Made by a program: the position numbers and the translations under genes. A DNA stretch of 23,420 nt from a virus, in IMG/VR virus record IMGVR_UViG_3300028400_000031, positions 1 to 23,420 of that record; one strand, given 5' to 3'. A model generated the notes under the pieces. The model saw only the letters and a program-made list of their open reading frames with translations, was not told the DNA's origin and ran no database searches. Shown piece by piece: positions 2,221 to 17,006 of the stretch (the first letter of the stretch is position 1; every line of letters begins with the position of its first letter).

Positions 2221-2377
2221 TTTCTTCCTTCTTTGCGAATTTTTTGTTGTACTCTCTGATCTGCTTGTTCAAAAACTCGTTTGCCCTATTGCACTCTTTG
2301 AGCTGTTTTTCCAGCTCACGTATGCGATCTACGAGTTTTTTGAACTCCTCTGCACTCAATACAACTTTTTTACTCAT
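2213..2377 (-). CDS. Small coiled-coil protein in the lysis cassette
   Basis: This 54-residue protein starts MSKKVVLSAEEFKKLVDRI and continues as an almost unbroken charged amphipathic helix (RELEKQLKECNRANEFLNK). It is translationally coupled on both sides: its ATG lies 8 bp inside the Rz1 gene end, and its stop overlaps the endolysin start. Such tight packing argues that it is real even though it is short. It has no membrane segment and no lipobox, so it is not another spanin. A role as a chaperone or regulator in lysis is only a guess. Confidence 0.65.
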   Translation of the reverse strand: MSKKVVLSAEEFKKLVDRIRELEKQLKECNRANEFLNKQIREYNKKFAKKEENG

Positions 2378-2549
2378 CACGCACCTCGTAGTGCAAGATA
2401 AGAGGTTCTCGCTTCGTCTTGTTCGTCTCCCACGTCTGCAATTTTGGACAAGTCGGTCGCACGTACACGACCCGATCTTTGCATGTGCAAGCGCTAATGA
2501 ATGACGATAGTATGAGCGCCGATAGAGAGATTGATATCTTTCTTGTCAT
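2370..2549 (-). CDS. Rz1-like outer-membrane spanin lipoprotein
   Basis: This 59-residue protein has MTRKISISLSALILSSFISAC, where the N-terminal KIS...LSSFISA is a signal peptide and Cys21 ends a lipobox. The mature part has VYVRPTCPKLQTWE, which is typical of Rz1-family o-spanins ('CPKLQ' motif). The start at 2549 is inside the 3' end of the Rz gene in another frame, giving a 56-bp overlap. A longer reading frame upstream exists but has no export signal at its own start. The mature protein would be anchored in the outer membrane and pair with Rz across the periplasm to disrupt the outer membrane after endolysin action. Confidence 0.8.
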   Translation of the reverse strand: MTRKISISLSALILSSFISACTCKDRVVYVRPTCPKLQTWETNKTKREPLILHYEVRDE

Positions 2550-2838
2550 ATTGTGAGGCCTCCAGTCGTTGTAGTCGTTTTTTGATCGCTTTTTGCTTCT
2601 CCTCGAAGATCTCCTTCGCTCGCTGCTCCTTGAGGGTCGATAGCTTTTGGACGAGATCTCGCAATATCTCCTGCTTGCGCAGCAGCTCGGATCTTTGCTT
2701 TTCGAGCTCGCTTTTTTGACGCTCGATCGGCTGGTAGTGCCACACATAGAGAAACACCACGAGAGCTATTGCCAGCACGGCTCCAAACGTGAGCTTGAGA
2801 TTGATGCGGGAAAACAAGAGGCTAATAAGTCGTATCAT
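2494..2838 (-). CDS. Rz-like inner-membrane spanin
   Basis: This 114-residue protein has a short cytoplasmic N-terminus, one transmembrane helix (FGAVLAIALVVFLYVWHY, about residues 18-35) and a long charged coiled coil (residues 40-95, with KSELEKQRSELLRKQEILRD). This is the standard i-spanin architecture. Its start overlaps the end of the holin gene by 17 bp and its 3' end contains the start of the Rz1 gene. The pair would link inner and outer membranes and complete lysis. No sequence motif separates it from other short coiled-coil membrane proteins, so the call rests on architecture and on the embedded Rz1 gene. Confidence 0.75.
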   Translation of the reverse strand: MIRLISLLFSRINLKLTFGAVLAIALVVFLYVWHYQPIERQKSELEKQRSELLRKQEILRDLVQKLSTLKEQRAKEIFEEKQKAIKKRLQRLEASQYDKKDINLSIGAHTIVIH

Positions 2839-12300: not shown

Positions 12301-12433
12301 CAGATTTCTTTATGGATTTCGAGAGGGACATGGCGGCTTTGTCAAGTTTGCCTAATTCGCCCTGGTAGACTTTCAACTCTCCCGTTTTGGCATCGGTCTT
12401 GATAACTAATTTAAGCTCTTTTTTGCCGCTCAT
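6359..12433 (-). CDS. Tail tape measure protein (2024 aa)
   Basis: This is by far the longest gene. Residues about 85-185 match the tape measure domain (MEFEKFTAVLSTIEGSSQQA, then TPYQLAEVTESFVKLRAYGL). Residues about 660-745 are a Gly/Ala-rich hydrophobic stretch (GAIGGAIGSIGGPLGAAIGS), likely to insert in the host membrane during DNA delivery. Long coiled coils fill the remainder. A D-x-D-x-D-G loop (DFDRDGVTD, about residue 1775) may bind calcium. The C-terminus has GGYTGDIPPSVVAGVVHGQE followed by FVVNAPTTRRLG, a conserved tape measure end motif. By the usual 0.15 nm per residue rule the tail would be about 300 nm (inference). Its ATG overlaps the chaperone-extension stop (ATGA at 12430-12433). 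The part 7800-9000 is markedly AT-richer than its flanks. Confidence 0.92.
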   Translation of the reverse strand: MSGKKELKLVIKTDAKTGELKVYQGELGKLDKAAMSLSKSIKKSATSVEKFTNTIKGLATAGVAIYALKQLSDAAIALGGSFIKTGMEFEKFTAVLSTIEGSSQQAQKSMQWIVDFTQKTPYQLAEVTESFVKLRAYGLEPTKGLLKTLGDTAAAMGKPLEQAVEAIADAVNGEFERLKEFGIKAYNQGDKVAFQWANASGKVKHIVVQNNQEIIQSTLEAIWNSKFEGAAQKRAQTLEGILSNMRDNWTKFKISVLQSGVYNYVKSVTRVVGEELAKTLADNEENVQKWANFIIDGIKKTVKAVAEFAKSWHWVKVAIKSIEIAWKGLKSGIFTGIQGMVKFAKMVNSALPERWQSKWINKINETAFDKLAEEARAEVRKALDEFVDLSLEKTKDYDKIVENFLRKVDIQYKKFSSNIKKATEKTTKEVKGAVDGAVNATSKATQLTFEDIKRGWQASAQKYKLSMNLLLSDTKKTVKETAKYTETAFDRATQNIYKSFDDNFFSAITGKFHDFKDFLRSLFRDILNSIINPFARYLSSSLSGALMGAIGMPVGAGGVSIAQSLTQAGFQAVSDGVFKNALGQQVKIAGGQVQAFDASGNPIALSSVSGLPSGIGTVSNAAAFLSNPAGSLANYFSSHGAGLSAAGYSTLGGMSTGYAAWWGGGTPMTTAQSIGYYGGGALTGAAMGYGMGKLGDAIFGTQTRAGEYGAIGGAIGSIGGPLGAAIGSAIGSAIGGMFARWKVKNKGLMWTHSIDSTQLDQIFDFVHSTKKSWFDGSSKTDLKGLKPGEIEQIKAYFKSYENLLTELDKSHREFILTFDKAKLIVDKNKNKFQEYVVKEFLAKMVGLDGKFETLFKEGAKRVLKEKDWGTEAFWYVAGTYEKRMKDIDKLIAEAPNEGVRKALKEDKARLQKLYGLYNIWKDYAESQKKSVDEVIQEAFGQVLQLHDRFRAFKLDQMGLDGNAIVEVERASKTMKTSFEDLKETLQDAGVDVESFGDITTENFEQIYNAVIHNNPTPQTLDALNRLGDAFLTLAQKAQSAFAMIDAIHAQAHGETIQAPKATDQIKAAVDQALGPGAADRLSQTIGVDWSDPTSIADWLYTTKNQSGDNWTDLSGNPLDKDEFFAKLQPYLPGLQQQVEQSSGQNNAAGLFPFSETDYAAGKSYASPLEFTHAAEANAYSNQHQFFNDVYYPNNGITIEIARKEEHAAKAWLEQLREHGGFPGYVPWGQQAKAYLDKMGVDIDSWSYKDFAKFALQDAVRLNPASYYGDHFDEEGNFVHDFNPAYPTYGFKEIAGHEDSAYDQIGFTDDLKTTILMGESNLGNAWKAWEEKRKQLEKIEKQIRDVLQGVVLDLQNMYAQAKGIHGDFSISSLKQAYEAKKSLEDRYDFVLTLDNFIEKVVSMDIDKITTEDVQNLQRASEYFKNILQVKVDFTKWLEDFAMSEVENIENPIERAKKKAELLEQKKTQADEALEYIRTKLHIADLSKDNFLQYYEEAMAATPTPEELELWSQAKNAIEDASRANQEYSKSLQEVAEAQKNSMNAYWQAVKESAKKWSDYIDRIEEQKAKKEAERIRKVIDAVSEKIGSLQNASSSLQSLIDKFVKPLQSPKEREALFHSFLDLAKTAFAAGNYKDYAEYLQKASGYADYIDDKLFASSKQKRYEMAVVANQLKDLKSPTDQMLEQLQAIKESNEAILEQTTAQKEKMLELVDVKIGGKSFEEITRDGQIQAIKSGDFQAVVGDPIEAVKQRLAPIAKLDTIETADGRMKILADFDRDGVTDMTFAFDQSGKLQGIERNTYGIWQMEAKRLEAVVKKMAVSMPSISEATRQYILSDYTITPEYISTAEGQLAADYYTPLAQAALQYEELLKSRTLDAESAPLYRQLAYEISTYAKALLQLDPEGGQNFGNFVVGLSDQYKFVKDLPNFYADIDQYIKDHGYATGGYTGDIPPSVVAGVVHGQEFVVNAPTTRRLGLNKDNGGVFMEILKELKEVKRENAELRAIVARHLPNVDKNTKKDARARVAG

Positions 12434-13043
12434 TTATCCCTCTTTACGTTATTAGCCCATACCACGCCAGCTTGTACGAATATGGGCGTCCACTCTTTTA
12501 CCTCGAAGTTGCTCCACTCCAGAAAGTCTTTAATGGCATCATACCTCTTGCCAACTATGCCGCCCATCCCACCATGCTCCCAAGGGATTTGCAAAAAAAT
12601 GCGGGAGGCCAGCTTGTAGATTTCATTGTCAAATACAACGACTTTGGAAGCTGGATTTTCAAGGATTTGTTCAAGCTCTTCCTCGTCAAGATCCAGCTCC
12701 CCGATACCCTTCGCATTTTGCTCACACCAAAGATAGAATTTTTCTATCTCCTCTTGCGTCGCTTTCCCAGCTCTTCTTGTAGGTTGCCCACAAACTCGAA
12801 GAGGTTGCCATGCTCTTCAAGCTCCTCTATCATCTTCTCTTTTAGCTCCTCGTCTCCGATTACGTTCTCTTGCAAGATTTTAATATGCAGCGCATAGCGC
12901 TCATCGTCGTCCATCTCTGCGATCCTGGAGAACTCTTGGATCTGCTTAGTATTCATGTCACGAAATTTGAATTCCGCCTTGCTACCATCCAGAAACTCGA
13001 ACTCGAATGGGAATTCGGTAAGTTTTGCGCTAAATTTTTTCAC
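12430..13043 (-). CDS. Tail assembly chaperone, -1 frameshift fusion (lambda gpGT-like)
   Basis: This is the predicted long product of the chaperone gene. Ribosomes reading the 99-codon frame reach G GGA AAG (12762-12768), can slip back one base after codon 94, and then read 110 further codons to a TGA at 12430-12432. The predicted product is 204 residues. The extension begins ATQEEIEKFYLWCEQNAKGI and ends WANNVKRDK. It has no ATG, GTG or TTG start upstream of residue 66 of the extension, and the -1 frame is closed by a TGA just before the overlap. In lambda the equivalent gpGT binds the tape measure through T and recruits tube protein through G. Its stop overlaps the tape measure start. Confidence 0.8.
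12744..13043 (-). CDS. Tail assembly chaperone, short form (lambda gpG-like)
   Basis: This 99-residue acidic helical protein lies between the tail tube and tape measure genes, the invariant place of tail assembly chaperones in siphoviruses. It starts MKKFSAKLTEFPFEFEFLDG, a beta-rich start seen in such chaperones, then becomes helical and highly charged, ending LQEELGKRRKRR. Sequence similarity of this class is poor across phages, so the call rests on position, size and the frameshift site near the 3' end. It prevents early tube polymerisation and is not expected in the finished virion. Confidence 0.75.
   Translation of the reverse strand: MKKFSAKLTEFPFEFEFLDGSKAEFKFRDMNTKQIQEFSRIAEMDDDERYALHIKILQENVIGDEELKEKMIEELEEHGNLFEFVGNLQEELGKRRKRR
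12762..12768 (-). other. Programmed -1 ribosomal frameshift site GGGAAAG
   Basis: On the minus strand the heptamer reads G GGA AAG in the chaperone frame and GGG AAA G after a -1 slip. This is the same heptamer used in phage lambda gene G/T. The short-frame stop TAG follows 15 bases later (12744-12746). The frame-shifted reading stays open for 110 codons. A purine-rich AGGAGA lies just downstream of the slip. No strong stem was identified after it, as in lambda. Confidence 0.8.
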
Positions 13044-15068: not shown

Positions 15069-17006
15069 TTACGCGCCAGCGTTTTTGTAAAGGCCTCGGT
15101 AATCCTCGGCGAATAGACCAAAATCAAACACACACTCGTAACTCACATAACGAAGGGTTCGCTCTTTTTCAGCCACGATTGGACGCTTGCCCGTGCCAGA
15201 TAGATACCCAACTTTAATAGTTCTTCTGTTTGCAGCCAGATACCAAGGAGTTGGATCGAGCTCAGCATCCACAATCACTTCAAGCGCCCCTCTAAATGGA
15301 TTGACCACACCTGGGTTGTCCTGGCCTACGGCTGTTTCGCTCGTGATGAGCTGCCTTACTTTCGTCTCGTTTTCTGGGCCAACGAGGATGTATTTAGGAT
15401 TGATATTGAGCGGCGTACCGGATGCGTCTTTTTGTCTTCGCATCTTCACTCTTGCAGCGGTCAAAGTATCGATACCTGGCGCTGCACCGCTGGTATCGAC
15501 ATTTTTGTGCGCGCTGTCGAAAATTGGCTTGCCATCAGCCATTTTGTAGTTGGCATATTCGCCTTTACCTTGCAGCAAGTCGTACACAAGACCATTGGCA
15601 GTGCGCTTGGCCATAAGCGCAAAATCTTGAATAATGTCCGTAAACGCATTAAGATCATCATTGATGATCATCTCTCGACTAAGTACAACCTCGTCGCCAT
15701 AGCTGTAAAGCCTCCAGCTTTCAGCCTCTTCGCCAACCTCTTTTCTTTTTGGCTCTCCATATTCAGTAAGCTTTTGAAGCCTGCCAGCCATTTTTGTTCT
15801 ACTAACTTCAGTTCTTGTTCTAAAATCTGGCAGCTCTGTAGATGCTGTCCACAAATTAAACGTGCCCTCTGCCTCATCAAAGGCTTGGCTTAGCACTCTA
15901 TTTGCCACATTGCCAAGAAGCACTGGAAAATCGCTCGTACTCATAGCACGCTTAATCATTTCATCCCTGTCGTATCCCATATAACTGGTTACTGCACGGA
16001 TAATGTCAGAAAGCTTTGCGCTCATGAACATGTGTGCATCTTGATGCGGTTTGTCAAGTTTCACGCCACTTCGCATAATCAGCGCATCGGCTGCCGCTCT
16101 TTTAACCTCTTCCTCCTTCTGAGGATTACCCACTTGCACGCCAGGCACAAATCCTGGGTTATCATCAGTAGTTTTTTTACTCAAAAGATGTCTTGCGAGA
16201 TCATCTGCAGTTTTGCTTGGGTCATCCAAGAAGCGCTGCAGCTCTTCATCACTCACCAAATCTTTGTGTGCGTATGCAAGCTTTTCGATCTCGCCTCTTC
16301 TTTTAAGCTCCGCATTTTCTTTCTTAACCTCCTCCATGCTCATGCCGATTTCTTCCATAGCTCTTGCAATCTCATCGAGCTTTTTTTGGATCGTCTCGGC
16401 ATCCGCGCCTTCTTTTCTCAATTCCGCCAGTTGTCTCTTCAACTCTTCGATAGGCATTTCCTCTCCTTCCTCAAATTTTCTACCAATTCCAGCAGACGGA
16501 TCTGCACCTATATCCACCAAGCTAGCCTCTTGAAACTCCCACCTCGTCACCTCCACCAGGGGCACGTTCCCATCTCTCTCAGTTACCCGTACTTCAAGCT
16601 TCCTGCCTCCTACAGAAATTTCGCTAAGCGTCCCCTCCTCGACCATCCGCCAAAGCATGTCCGCATCTGGGTTGGCTTTGGAGAAAATAGCGTCAGCTCT
16701 AAGCTGCCTGTTTTCAAGCCTTACATTCTCAAGCCTGCCAATAGGCAGCTCGCCATATTTGCCGCTGCCGTGCATATAGCGAAGCTTTGCATTCGCCGCG
16801 CGGCTTAAATCCACATTCTCCTCCCCATGCAGCAGCACTTCCTCGTACACCTCGCCGCTCCACCAGTCGGTGCGCCTAATGGGAGTCTCTGTCGAAATCA
16901 AAATAGAGACTCTTCTCTCTTCAGAATTAATGTTTTTCCTGTCGATAGTAGCCCGCCGCTCTATCGGCTCTGCTATCAGTCTTTTTTCTTCCATTCTCTT
17001 AGGCAT
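15069..17006 (-). CDS. Fused prohead protease / scaffold / major capsid protein
   Basis: This 645-residue fusion has three parts. Residues 30-175 are an HK97-type prohead protease: His79 in LRYMHGSGKYGELPIGRLEN, Ser131 in GTLSEISVGGR and E160 in FQEASLVDIGADPSA match catalytic positions. Residues 184-270 are charged coiled coil (PIEELKRQLAELRKEG...), a scaffold-like delta region. Residues about 330-645 are a major capsid protein, with RTANGLVYDLLQGKGEYANY, NPKYILVGPENETKVRQLI and ending FGLFAEDYRGLYKNAGA. Cleavage after the scaffold would release mature capsid subunits. The ATG has GGAGG 6 bases upstream and overlaps the portal stop by 8 bp. The same fusion is known in other siphoviruses. A second start at 16457 may give scaffold-capsid without protease. 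Confidence 0.85.
   Translation of the reverse strand: MPKRMEEKRLIAEPIERRATIDRKNINSEERRVSILISTETPIRRTDWWSGEVYEEVLLHGEENVDLSRAANAKLRYMHGSGKYGELPIGRLENVRLENRQLRADAIFSKANPDADMLWRMVEEGTLSEISVGGRKLEVRVTERDGNVPLVEVTRWEFQEASLVDIGADPSAGIGRKFEEGEEMPIEELKRQLAELRKEGADAETIQKKLDEIARAMEEIGMSMEEVKKENAELKRRGEIEKLAYAHKDLVSDEELQRFLDDPSKTADDLARHLLSKKTTDDNPGFVPGVQVGNPQKEEEVKRAAADALIMRSGVKLDKPHQDAHMFMSAKLSDIIRAVTSYMGYDRDEMIKRAMSTSDFPVLLGNVANRVLSQAFDEAEGTFNLWTASTELPDFRTRTEVSRTKMAGRLQKLTEYGEPKRKEVGEEAESWRLYSYGDEVVLSREMIINDDLNAFTDIIQDFALMAKRTANGLVYDLLQGKGEYANYKMADGKPIFDSAHKNVDTSGAAPGIDTLTAARVKMRRQKDASGTPLNINPKYILVGPENETKVRQLITSETAVGQDNPGVVNPFRGALEVIVDAELDPTPWYLAANRRTIKVGYLSGTGKRPIVAEKERTLRYVSYECVFDFGLFAEDYRGLYKNAGA
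16455..16468 (-). promoter_or_regulatory. Internal ribosome site and ATG inside the protease-capsid gene
   Basis: On the minus strand AAGGAG-AGGAA-ATG places a strong ribosome site 5 bases before an in-frame ATG (Met184), exactly at the boundary between the protease domain and the scaffold coiled coil. Starting there would make a 462-residue scaffold-capsid protein. The purine run also encodes E-E-G-E-E, so coincidence is possible, but the position at a domain boundary is suggestive. Confidence 0.5.

Follow-up and report, generated by a model that had tools for sequence, protein, structure and literature searches.

In phage lambda, the tail assembly chaperones gpG and gpGT are made at a ratio of about 30:1, with the tape measure protein as the partner of G and the tube subunit as that of T (review PMC5009743). 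In E. coli, the slip site G_GGA_AAG ranks with the highly shift-prone heptamers; a haloarchaeal virus uses it too (PMC5009743). The gpG/gpT pair of the Lactococcus phage TP901-1 has a GGGAAAG slip site as well, which is required there for T and for tails; tails were lost when the heptamer was altered, and with a permanent fusion the particles looked normal but were not infectious (PMC4493119). The window analyzed here, an IMG/VR virus record of 23,420 bases with its tail genes on the minus strand, contained two overlapping ORFs, called G and T, in the order tube-G-T-tape measure. From the slip site, its register, the open -1 frame, their conservation, the coding signature of the -1 frame and the gene order, we consider it highly probable that this locus yields a predicted tail assembly chaperone pair, G and G-T, by a lambda-type programmed -1 ribosomal frameshift. 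In this Nitratiruptor-type deep-sea phage, both products very probably come from one gene by the predicted ribosomal slip.

Layout of the G-T locus

The features of the locus are listed in Table 1. The start codon of G was GTG, preceded by AAGGAGG, and the 3' end of the gene read GAA GAG CTG GGA AAG CGA CGC AAG AGG AGA TAG. A sequence-only reading of the window had described G GGA AAG five codons before the stop of the chaperone frame, and a -1 frame open for 110 codons up to a stop overlapping the start of the tape measure gene. Both descriptions held: five sense codons separated the heptamer from TAG, and the TGA of T (12432-12430) overlapped the tape measure ATG at 12433 as ATGA. The predicted fusion G-T consisted of G(1-94) and 110 residues, 204 aa in total. 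The same reading had found no usable start in the first 65 codons of the -1 frame, which was a fair description, although a TTG was present at codon 58 as the first ATG, GTG or TTG after the slip site; the next ATG was at codon 67.

Table 1. Features of the G-T locus and its neighbors in the window
Feature	Position	Strand	Remarks
Major tail tube protein, 300 aa	13056..13958	-	PF18906 Phage_tube_2, E 5.2e-9; phrog_290, E 1.2e-20
G, predicted zero-frame tail assembly chaperone	12744..13043	-	ORF of 99 aa between tail tube and tape measure
Predicted -1 slippery heptamer GGGAAAG	12762..12768	-	register G_GGA_AAG
G tail after the slip	12744..12761	-	5 sense codons and TAG, overlapped by the first -1 codons
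Predicted hairpin, 10 bp	12729..12751	-	about 10-11 nt past the heptamer, covers the G stop; possible stimulator
T, -1 extension (protein P0001)	12430..12765	-	read from the slip-site K codon; conserved protein, no shared start
Tape measure protein, 2024 aa	6359..12433	-	Pfam TMP_3, E 1.4e-22

The lambda record showed the same G_GGA_AAG, as had been claimed, and in the same register and -1 direction; there too, five codons separated it from the G stop, and it lay between the tail tube and tape measure genes. The term "lambda-identical" was appropriate for the site and the architecture but not as a demonstration of common descent, because no sequence homology to lambda G or T was detected. The G protein was 99 aa long here and 140 aa in lambda, and hhalign of G against lambda G, where one lambda sequence made for a weak test, gave E 0.59 over 6 columns. 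Nor was the heptamer special to lambda, given its use in the haloarchaeal virus and in TP901-1. The latter differed in having eight codons between slip and stop, and no relation to the window family was seen in the searches. The slip-to-stop distance was 5 codons in lambda (L032) and in all 16 core loci described below, 8 in TP901-1 (L063), and either 6 or 3 among outlying loci; the distance common to lambda and the core loci may be a coincidence.

Within the window, GGGAAAG occurred once against 3.8 occurrences expected by chance, and the probability of the -1 frame being open for 111 codons by chance was about 0.01. On these numbers the heptamer and the open frame of the window, taken without relatives, were only suggestive; since a heptamer in one window proves nothing, relatives were analyzed.

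Conservation of the slip site in related loci

Further relatives came from alignment queries run against viral and genome contigs. T alone (P0001) as the query gave no match among the viral contigs; the alignment queries succeeded. At the phylum level, 397 genomes were searched and yielded 8 matches, among them several new loci. The core set contained 16 distinct loci from phages and prophages of Campylobacterota; the cultured Nitratiruptor phages NrS-1/2/3 were among them. With three more distant loci (L028, L029, and L030), the total was 19. The related loci were labeled Nitratiruptor, Sulfurimonas, Sulfurospirillum, or Helicobacteraceae, or were unlabeled viral contigs. The tube-G-T order was kept in the relatives, and the tape measure gene was downstream where recognizable. 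A locus from a Nitratiruptor MAG (L011) was 98% identical to the window in G and 95% in the tail tube, and the host of the window virus is therefore probably Nitratiruptor or a near relative.

NrS-1/2/3 were direct homologues of the window, with about 80% identity in G, 73-75% in T, and an identical slip site and spacing. Unlike the window, with its ATGA overlap, these phages had about 150 nt between T and the tape measure gene; T was annotated as a hypothetical protein starting from TTG, and the major capsid gene was separate. In the window, the protease and the major capsid protein were fused in one 645-aa ORF (15069-17006, minus strand; phrog_4523), unlike the separate major capsid gene of NrS-1, which pointed to a common tail module combined with a different head module. 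The main text of the paper on the NrS phages mentioned neither a frameshift nor a chaperone (PMC9723563).

Conservation of the heptamer in relatives had been named as a test of the sequence-only reading. The results showed that 15 of the 16 core loci had the exact GGGAAAG in the identical register ([CT]TG GGA AAG), with frame and stop distance kept. The G stop followed exactly 5 sense codons after AAG in all 16, including the one exception, L005, which read CTG GGG AAG (GGGGAAG, L005:2648-2654). Among the distant loci, in all of which T was in the -1 frame, the corresponding sequences were GTG GGG AAG in L028 (heptamer near 1498), GCG GGA AAG in L030, and GAA AAA AAG in L029. In NrS-4, whose G and T were not recognizably related to the window family, A_AAA_AAG stood immediately before the G stop. 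Relatives lacking the heptamer had been named as a refutation, and L005 and L028 looked like such cases, but they were judged not to refute the reading. As compared across these sequences, the slippery character was always retained at the syntenic position while its letters drifted (GGGAAAG, GGGGAAG, and AAAAAAG). In L028, the tail tube was 77% and T 42% identical to the window, and its G was unrecognizable by BLAST; the chaperone G of this locus seems to have been replaced or to be very diverged, with its neighbors kept.

Compared with the window protein, G had about 30-38% identity between clades, LGK being among the few invariant stretches. The joint chance per genome of a Leu codon ending in G followed by GGA and AAG ranged from P 0.034 down to 0.0006. 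The lowest value belonged to L027 (GC3 0.09), where Leu codons ending in G made up 2% of Leu and AAG made up 6% of Lys. The codons of the slip site were held against codon bias. The conservation of the heptamer in relatives settled the reality of the site, and on sequence grounds it supports a gpGT-like chaperone fusion.

These results extend the predicted lambda-type chaperone frameshift to a Campylobacterota phage family that includes Nitratiruptor, Sulfurimonas, Sulfurospirillum, and Helicobacteraceae loci. Two "hypothetical proteins" of the cultured NrS-1/2/3 would be linked into one function, and their truncated annotations are corrected. The records had no link between the G and T ORFs; the gain is mainly one of annotation, and this kind of system is already well known. 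NrS-1/2/3 are inducible, which puts the prediction within direct reach of mass spectrometry.

Predicted products and alternative explanations

Searches of G and T against Pfam and PHROG found no described chaperone family up to E 0.1, with sub-threshold chance matches only, and sequence profiles had no match in the PDB. The AlphaFold model of G (pLDDT 87.6) contained a strand hairpin and four helices. Its best Foldseek match among 350,542 PDB chains was the HK97 tail assembly chaperone 2ob9, a weak match with E 0.05 and a probability of 0.80. VIA-align ranked 3fgx best (Z 5.6, rmsd 3.8, 82 aligned), with 2ob9 at Z 5.1 (rmsd 4.4, 87 aligned), 5ir0 at Z 4.3 (rmsd 4.8, 85 aligned), and YqbN (3klu) at Z 4.3 (rmsd 4.8, 90 aligned). 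The modeled G, a strand hairpin plus helices, appeared similar in fold to the HK97 chaperone and YqbN, although the scores were weak (E 0.05; Z 4.3-5.1) and the identity was 5-13%. Several BFVD matches of the G model were annotated as tail assembly chaperones. These structural scores, weak alone, agreed with the position of the gene. The model of T (pLDDT 84.5) contained five helices and had no convincing structural match; the best BFVD match had E 0.98, and the PDB matches reached Z 4.0 at most, to Bax.

The lack of sequence homology to known chaperones, together with a T domain without a convincing structural relative, would be consistent with a real frameshift whose products are not lambda-style tail assembly chaperones. 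The constant location between tube and tape measure, the two-product architecture, and the fold of the G model, which resembled those of the HK97 chaperone and YqbN, made this very improbable, even if it was the best surviving of the alternatives.

T was conserved across 14 aligned sequences, with 39-86% identity to the window. In a Sulfurimonas MAG (L013:3738-4062), the T frame was broken after about 45 codons and resumed in another frame, an interruption attributed to decay or to an assembly error. The extension had been expected to escape gene callers. It was not always missed, but it was truncated: the records of NrS-1/2/3 listed T as a separate 89-codon hypothetical protein with a TTG start (NrS-1 26552-26821, L004; NrS-2 29971-30240, L003; NrS-3 29995-30264, L002), and the record of NrS-4 (L031) listed T (28810-29079) from an ATA, although the -1 frame opened at A_AAA_AAG.

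The annotated TTG, at T codon 24, raised the question of whether T is a separate gene, translated from an internal start of this kind or by ribosomes that re-initiate past the G stop, with the heptamer being incidental. Re-initiation would also fit the AGGAGA motif that closely precedes the stop of G, both in the window and in the NrS phages. However, the TTG codon was CTG in the window and L011, and no start codon common to the T of the relatives was found; the first ATG, GTG, or TTG lay anywhere from codon 21 to codon 81, and several relatives had none before codon 50-80. With no shared initiator in the -1 frame, translation must enter it from G. A start codon for the extension had likewise been named as a refutation; in NrS-1/2/3 there was one, yet conservation at the protein level extended upstream of it, and the residues there ranked among the best conserved of T. 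In codons 8-23 of the -1 frame, which follow the G stop and precede the annotated TTG, pairs among the window, L011, NrS-1, and NrS-3 differed by 5-9 synonymous and 0-1 nonsynonymous codon changes, whereas the same bases read in other frames gave 5-10 nonsynonymous changes per pair. This synonymous evolution in the -1 frame argued against a separate gene, and an internal start would leave both the kept heptamer and the five-codon spacing unexplained. A separate T gene was therefore considered very improbable, slightly more so than non-chaperone products.

Two further explanations were considered hardly credible. Transcriptional rather than ribosomal slippage would be conceivable at the G-T junction of NrS-4, which has a run of eight A. 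Polymerase slippage normally requires long homopolymer runs, but no more than three identical bases stood in a row at the window site, and the site was conserved. An accidental frame relation, with one gene split by a point indel or a sequencing error, could be imagined for a single contig, and the T frame of L013 was indeed broken further down, but 19 distinct loci showed the same -1 relation, and these came from separate assemblies, finished phage genomes included.

Proposed mechanism and further features of the window

In the preferred reading, programmed ribosomal frameshifting, most ribosomes would end at the G stop and release the 99-aa G. In a minority, tRNA-Gly and tRNA-Lys(UUU) on GGA AAG would move back by one base onto GGG AAA, and these ribosomes would bypass TAG and continue in the -1 frame to give the 204-aa G-T. 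Known systems are the source for the proposed slippage, for its proposed rate of a few percent, and for the partners that G and T would bind. If lambda is a guide, the G part may coat the tape measure protein, a few T domains may recruit the tube subunit so that the tube polymerizes around the tape measure, and neither G nor G-T would remain in the virion. The genome holding an NrS-1-like prophage (G048) had 41 tRNA matches, and the identified ones included Lys(UUU), Gly(UCC), and Gly(GCC), with no Lys(CUU) and no Gly(CCC) among them. With this set, the tRNA on GGA can also pair with GGG, and the one on AAG with AAA.

GGGGAAG was carried by two separate lineages (L005 and L028). A tandem slip on GGGGAAG would leave the A-site tRNA mispaired, which counts against the preferred reading; these lineages may instead use a P-site slip, with Glu incorporated in place of Lys. 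No relevant literature was found on GGGGAAG in connection with tails and frameshifting. A broader proposal, that the slip is not always a two-tRNA event on GGGAAAG, with a P-site slip of a single tRNA-Gly on GGGGAAG, a hairpin that may set the rate, and T as an undescribed chaperone domain family, remains speculative, and we regard it as rather unlikely.

As for stimulators, the downstream hairpin had a z of -0.79 against synonymous recoding in the window and a mean z of -0.92 (+0.20 and -0.23 in the control windows). In the group of L010, L015, L020, and L027, a hairpin of 9-10 bp was stronger than under synonymous recoding (z -1.9 to -3.4), and p was below 0.02 in L010 and L027 only. Neither the window nor the NrS phages showed such an excess, and RNAalifold found no consensus structure in the hairpin region. 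A stimulatory role of the hairpin is not claimed, because of the p values reached only in those two loci and the lack of an RNAalifold consensus. A Shine-Dalgarno-like stimulator was also rejected, since by inspection nothing was conserved at the usual spacing of 10-14 nt; the GAAGAG or GAGGAG located 2 nt before the heptamer encoded the conserved EE.

Scaled on NrS-1 (tape measure of 1421 aa, tail of 210 nm) and NrS-4 (2178 aa, 337 nm) (PMC9723563), the tape measure protein of the window predicted a tail of about 300-313 nm. At 2370-2838 (minus strand), the ORF at 2494-2838, with a membrane segment at its N terminus, overlapped an out-of-frame ORF (2370-2747) that carried the lipobox-like LSSFISAC. 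These overlapping ORFs looked like a nested Rz/Rz1 spanin pair, and a likely endolysin (1642-2220) adjoined the putative pair.
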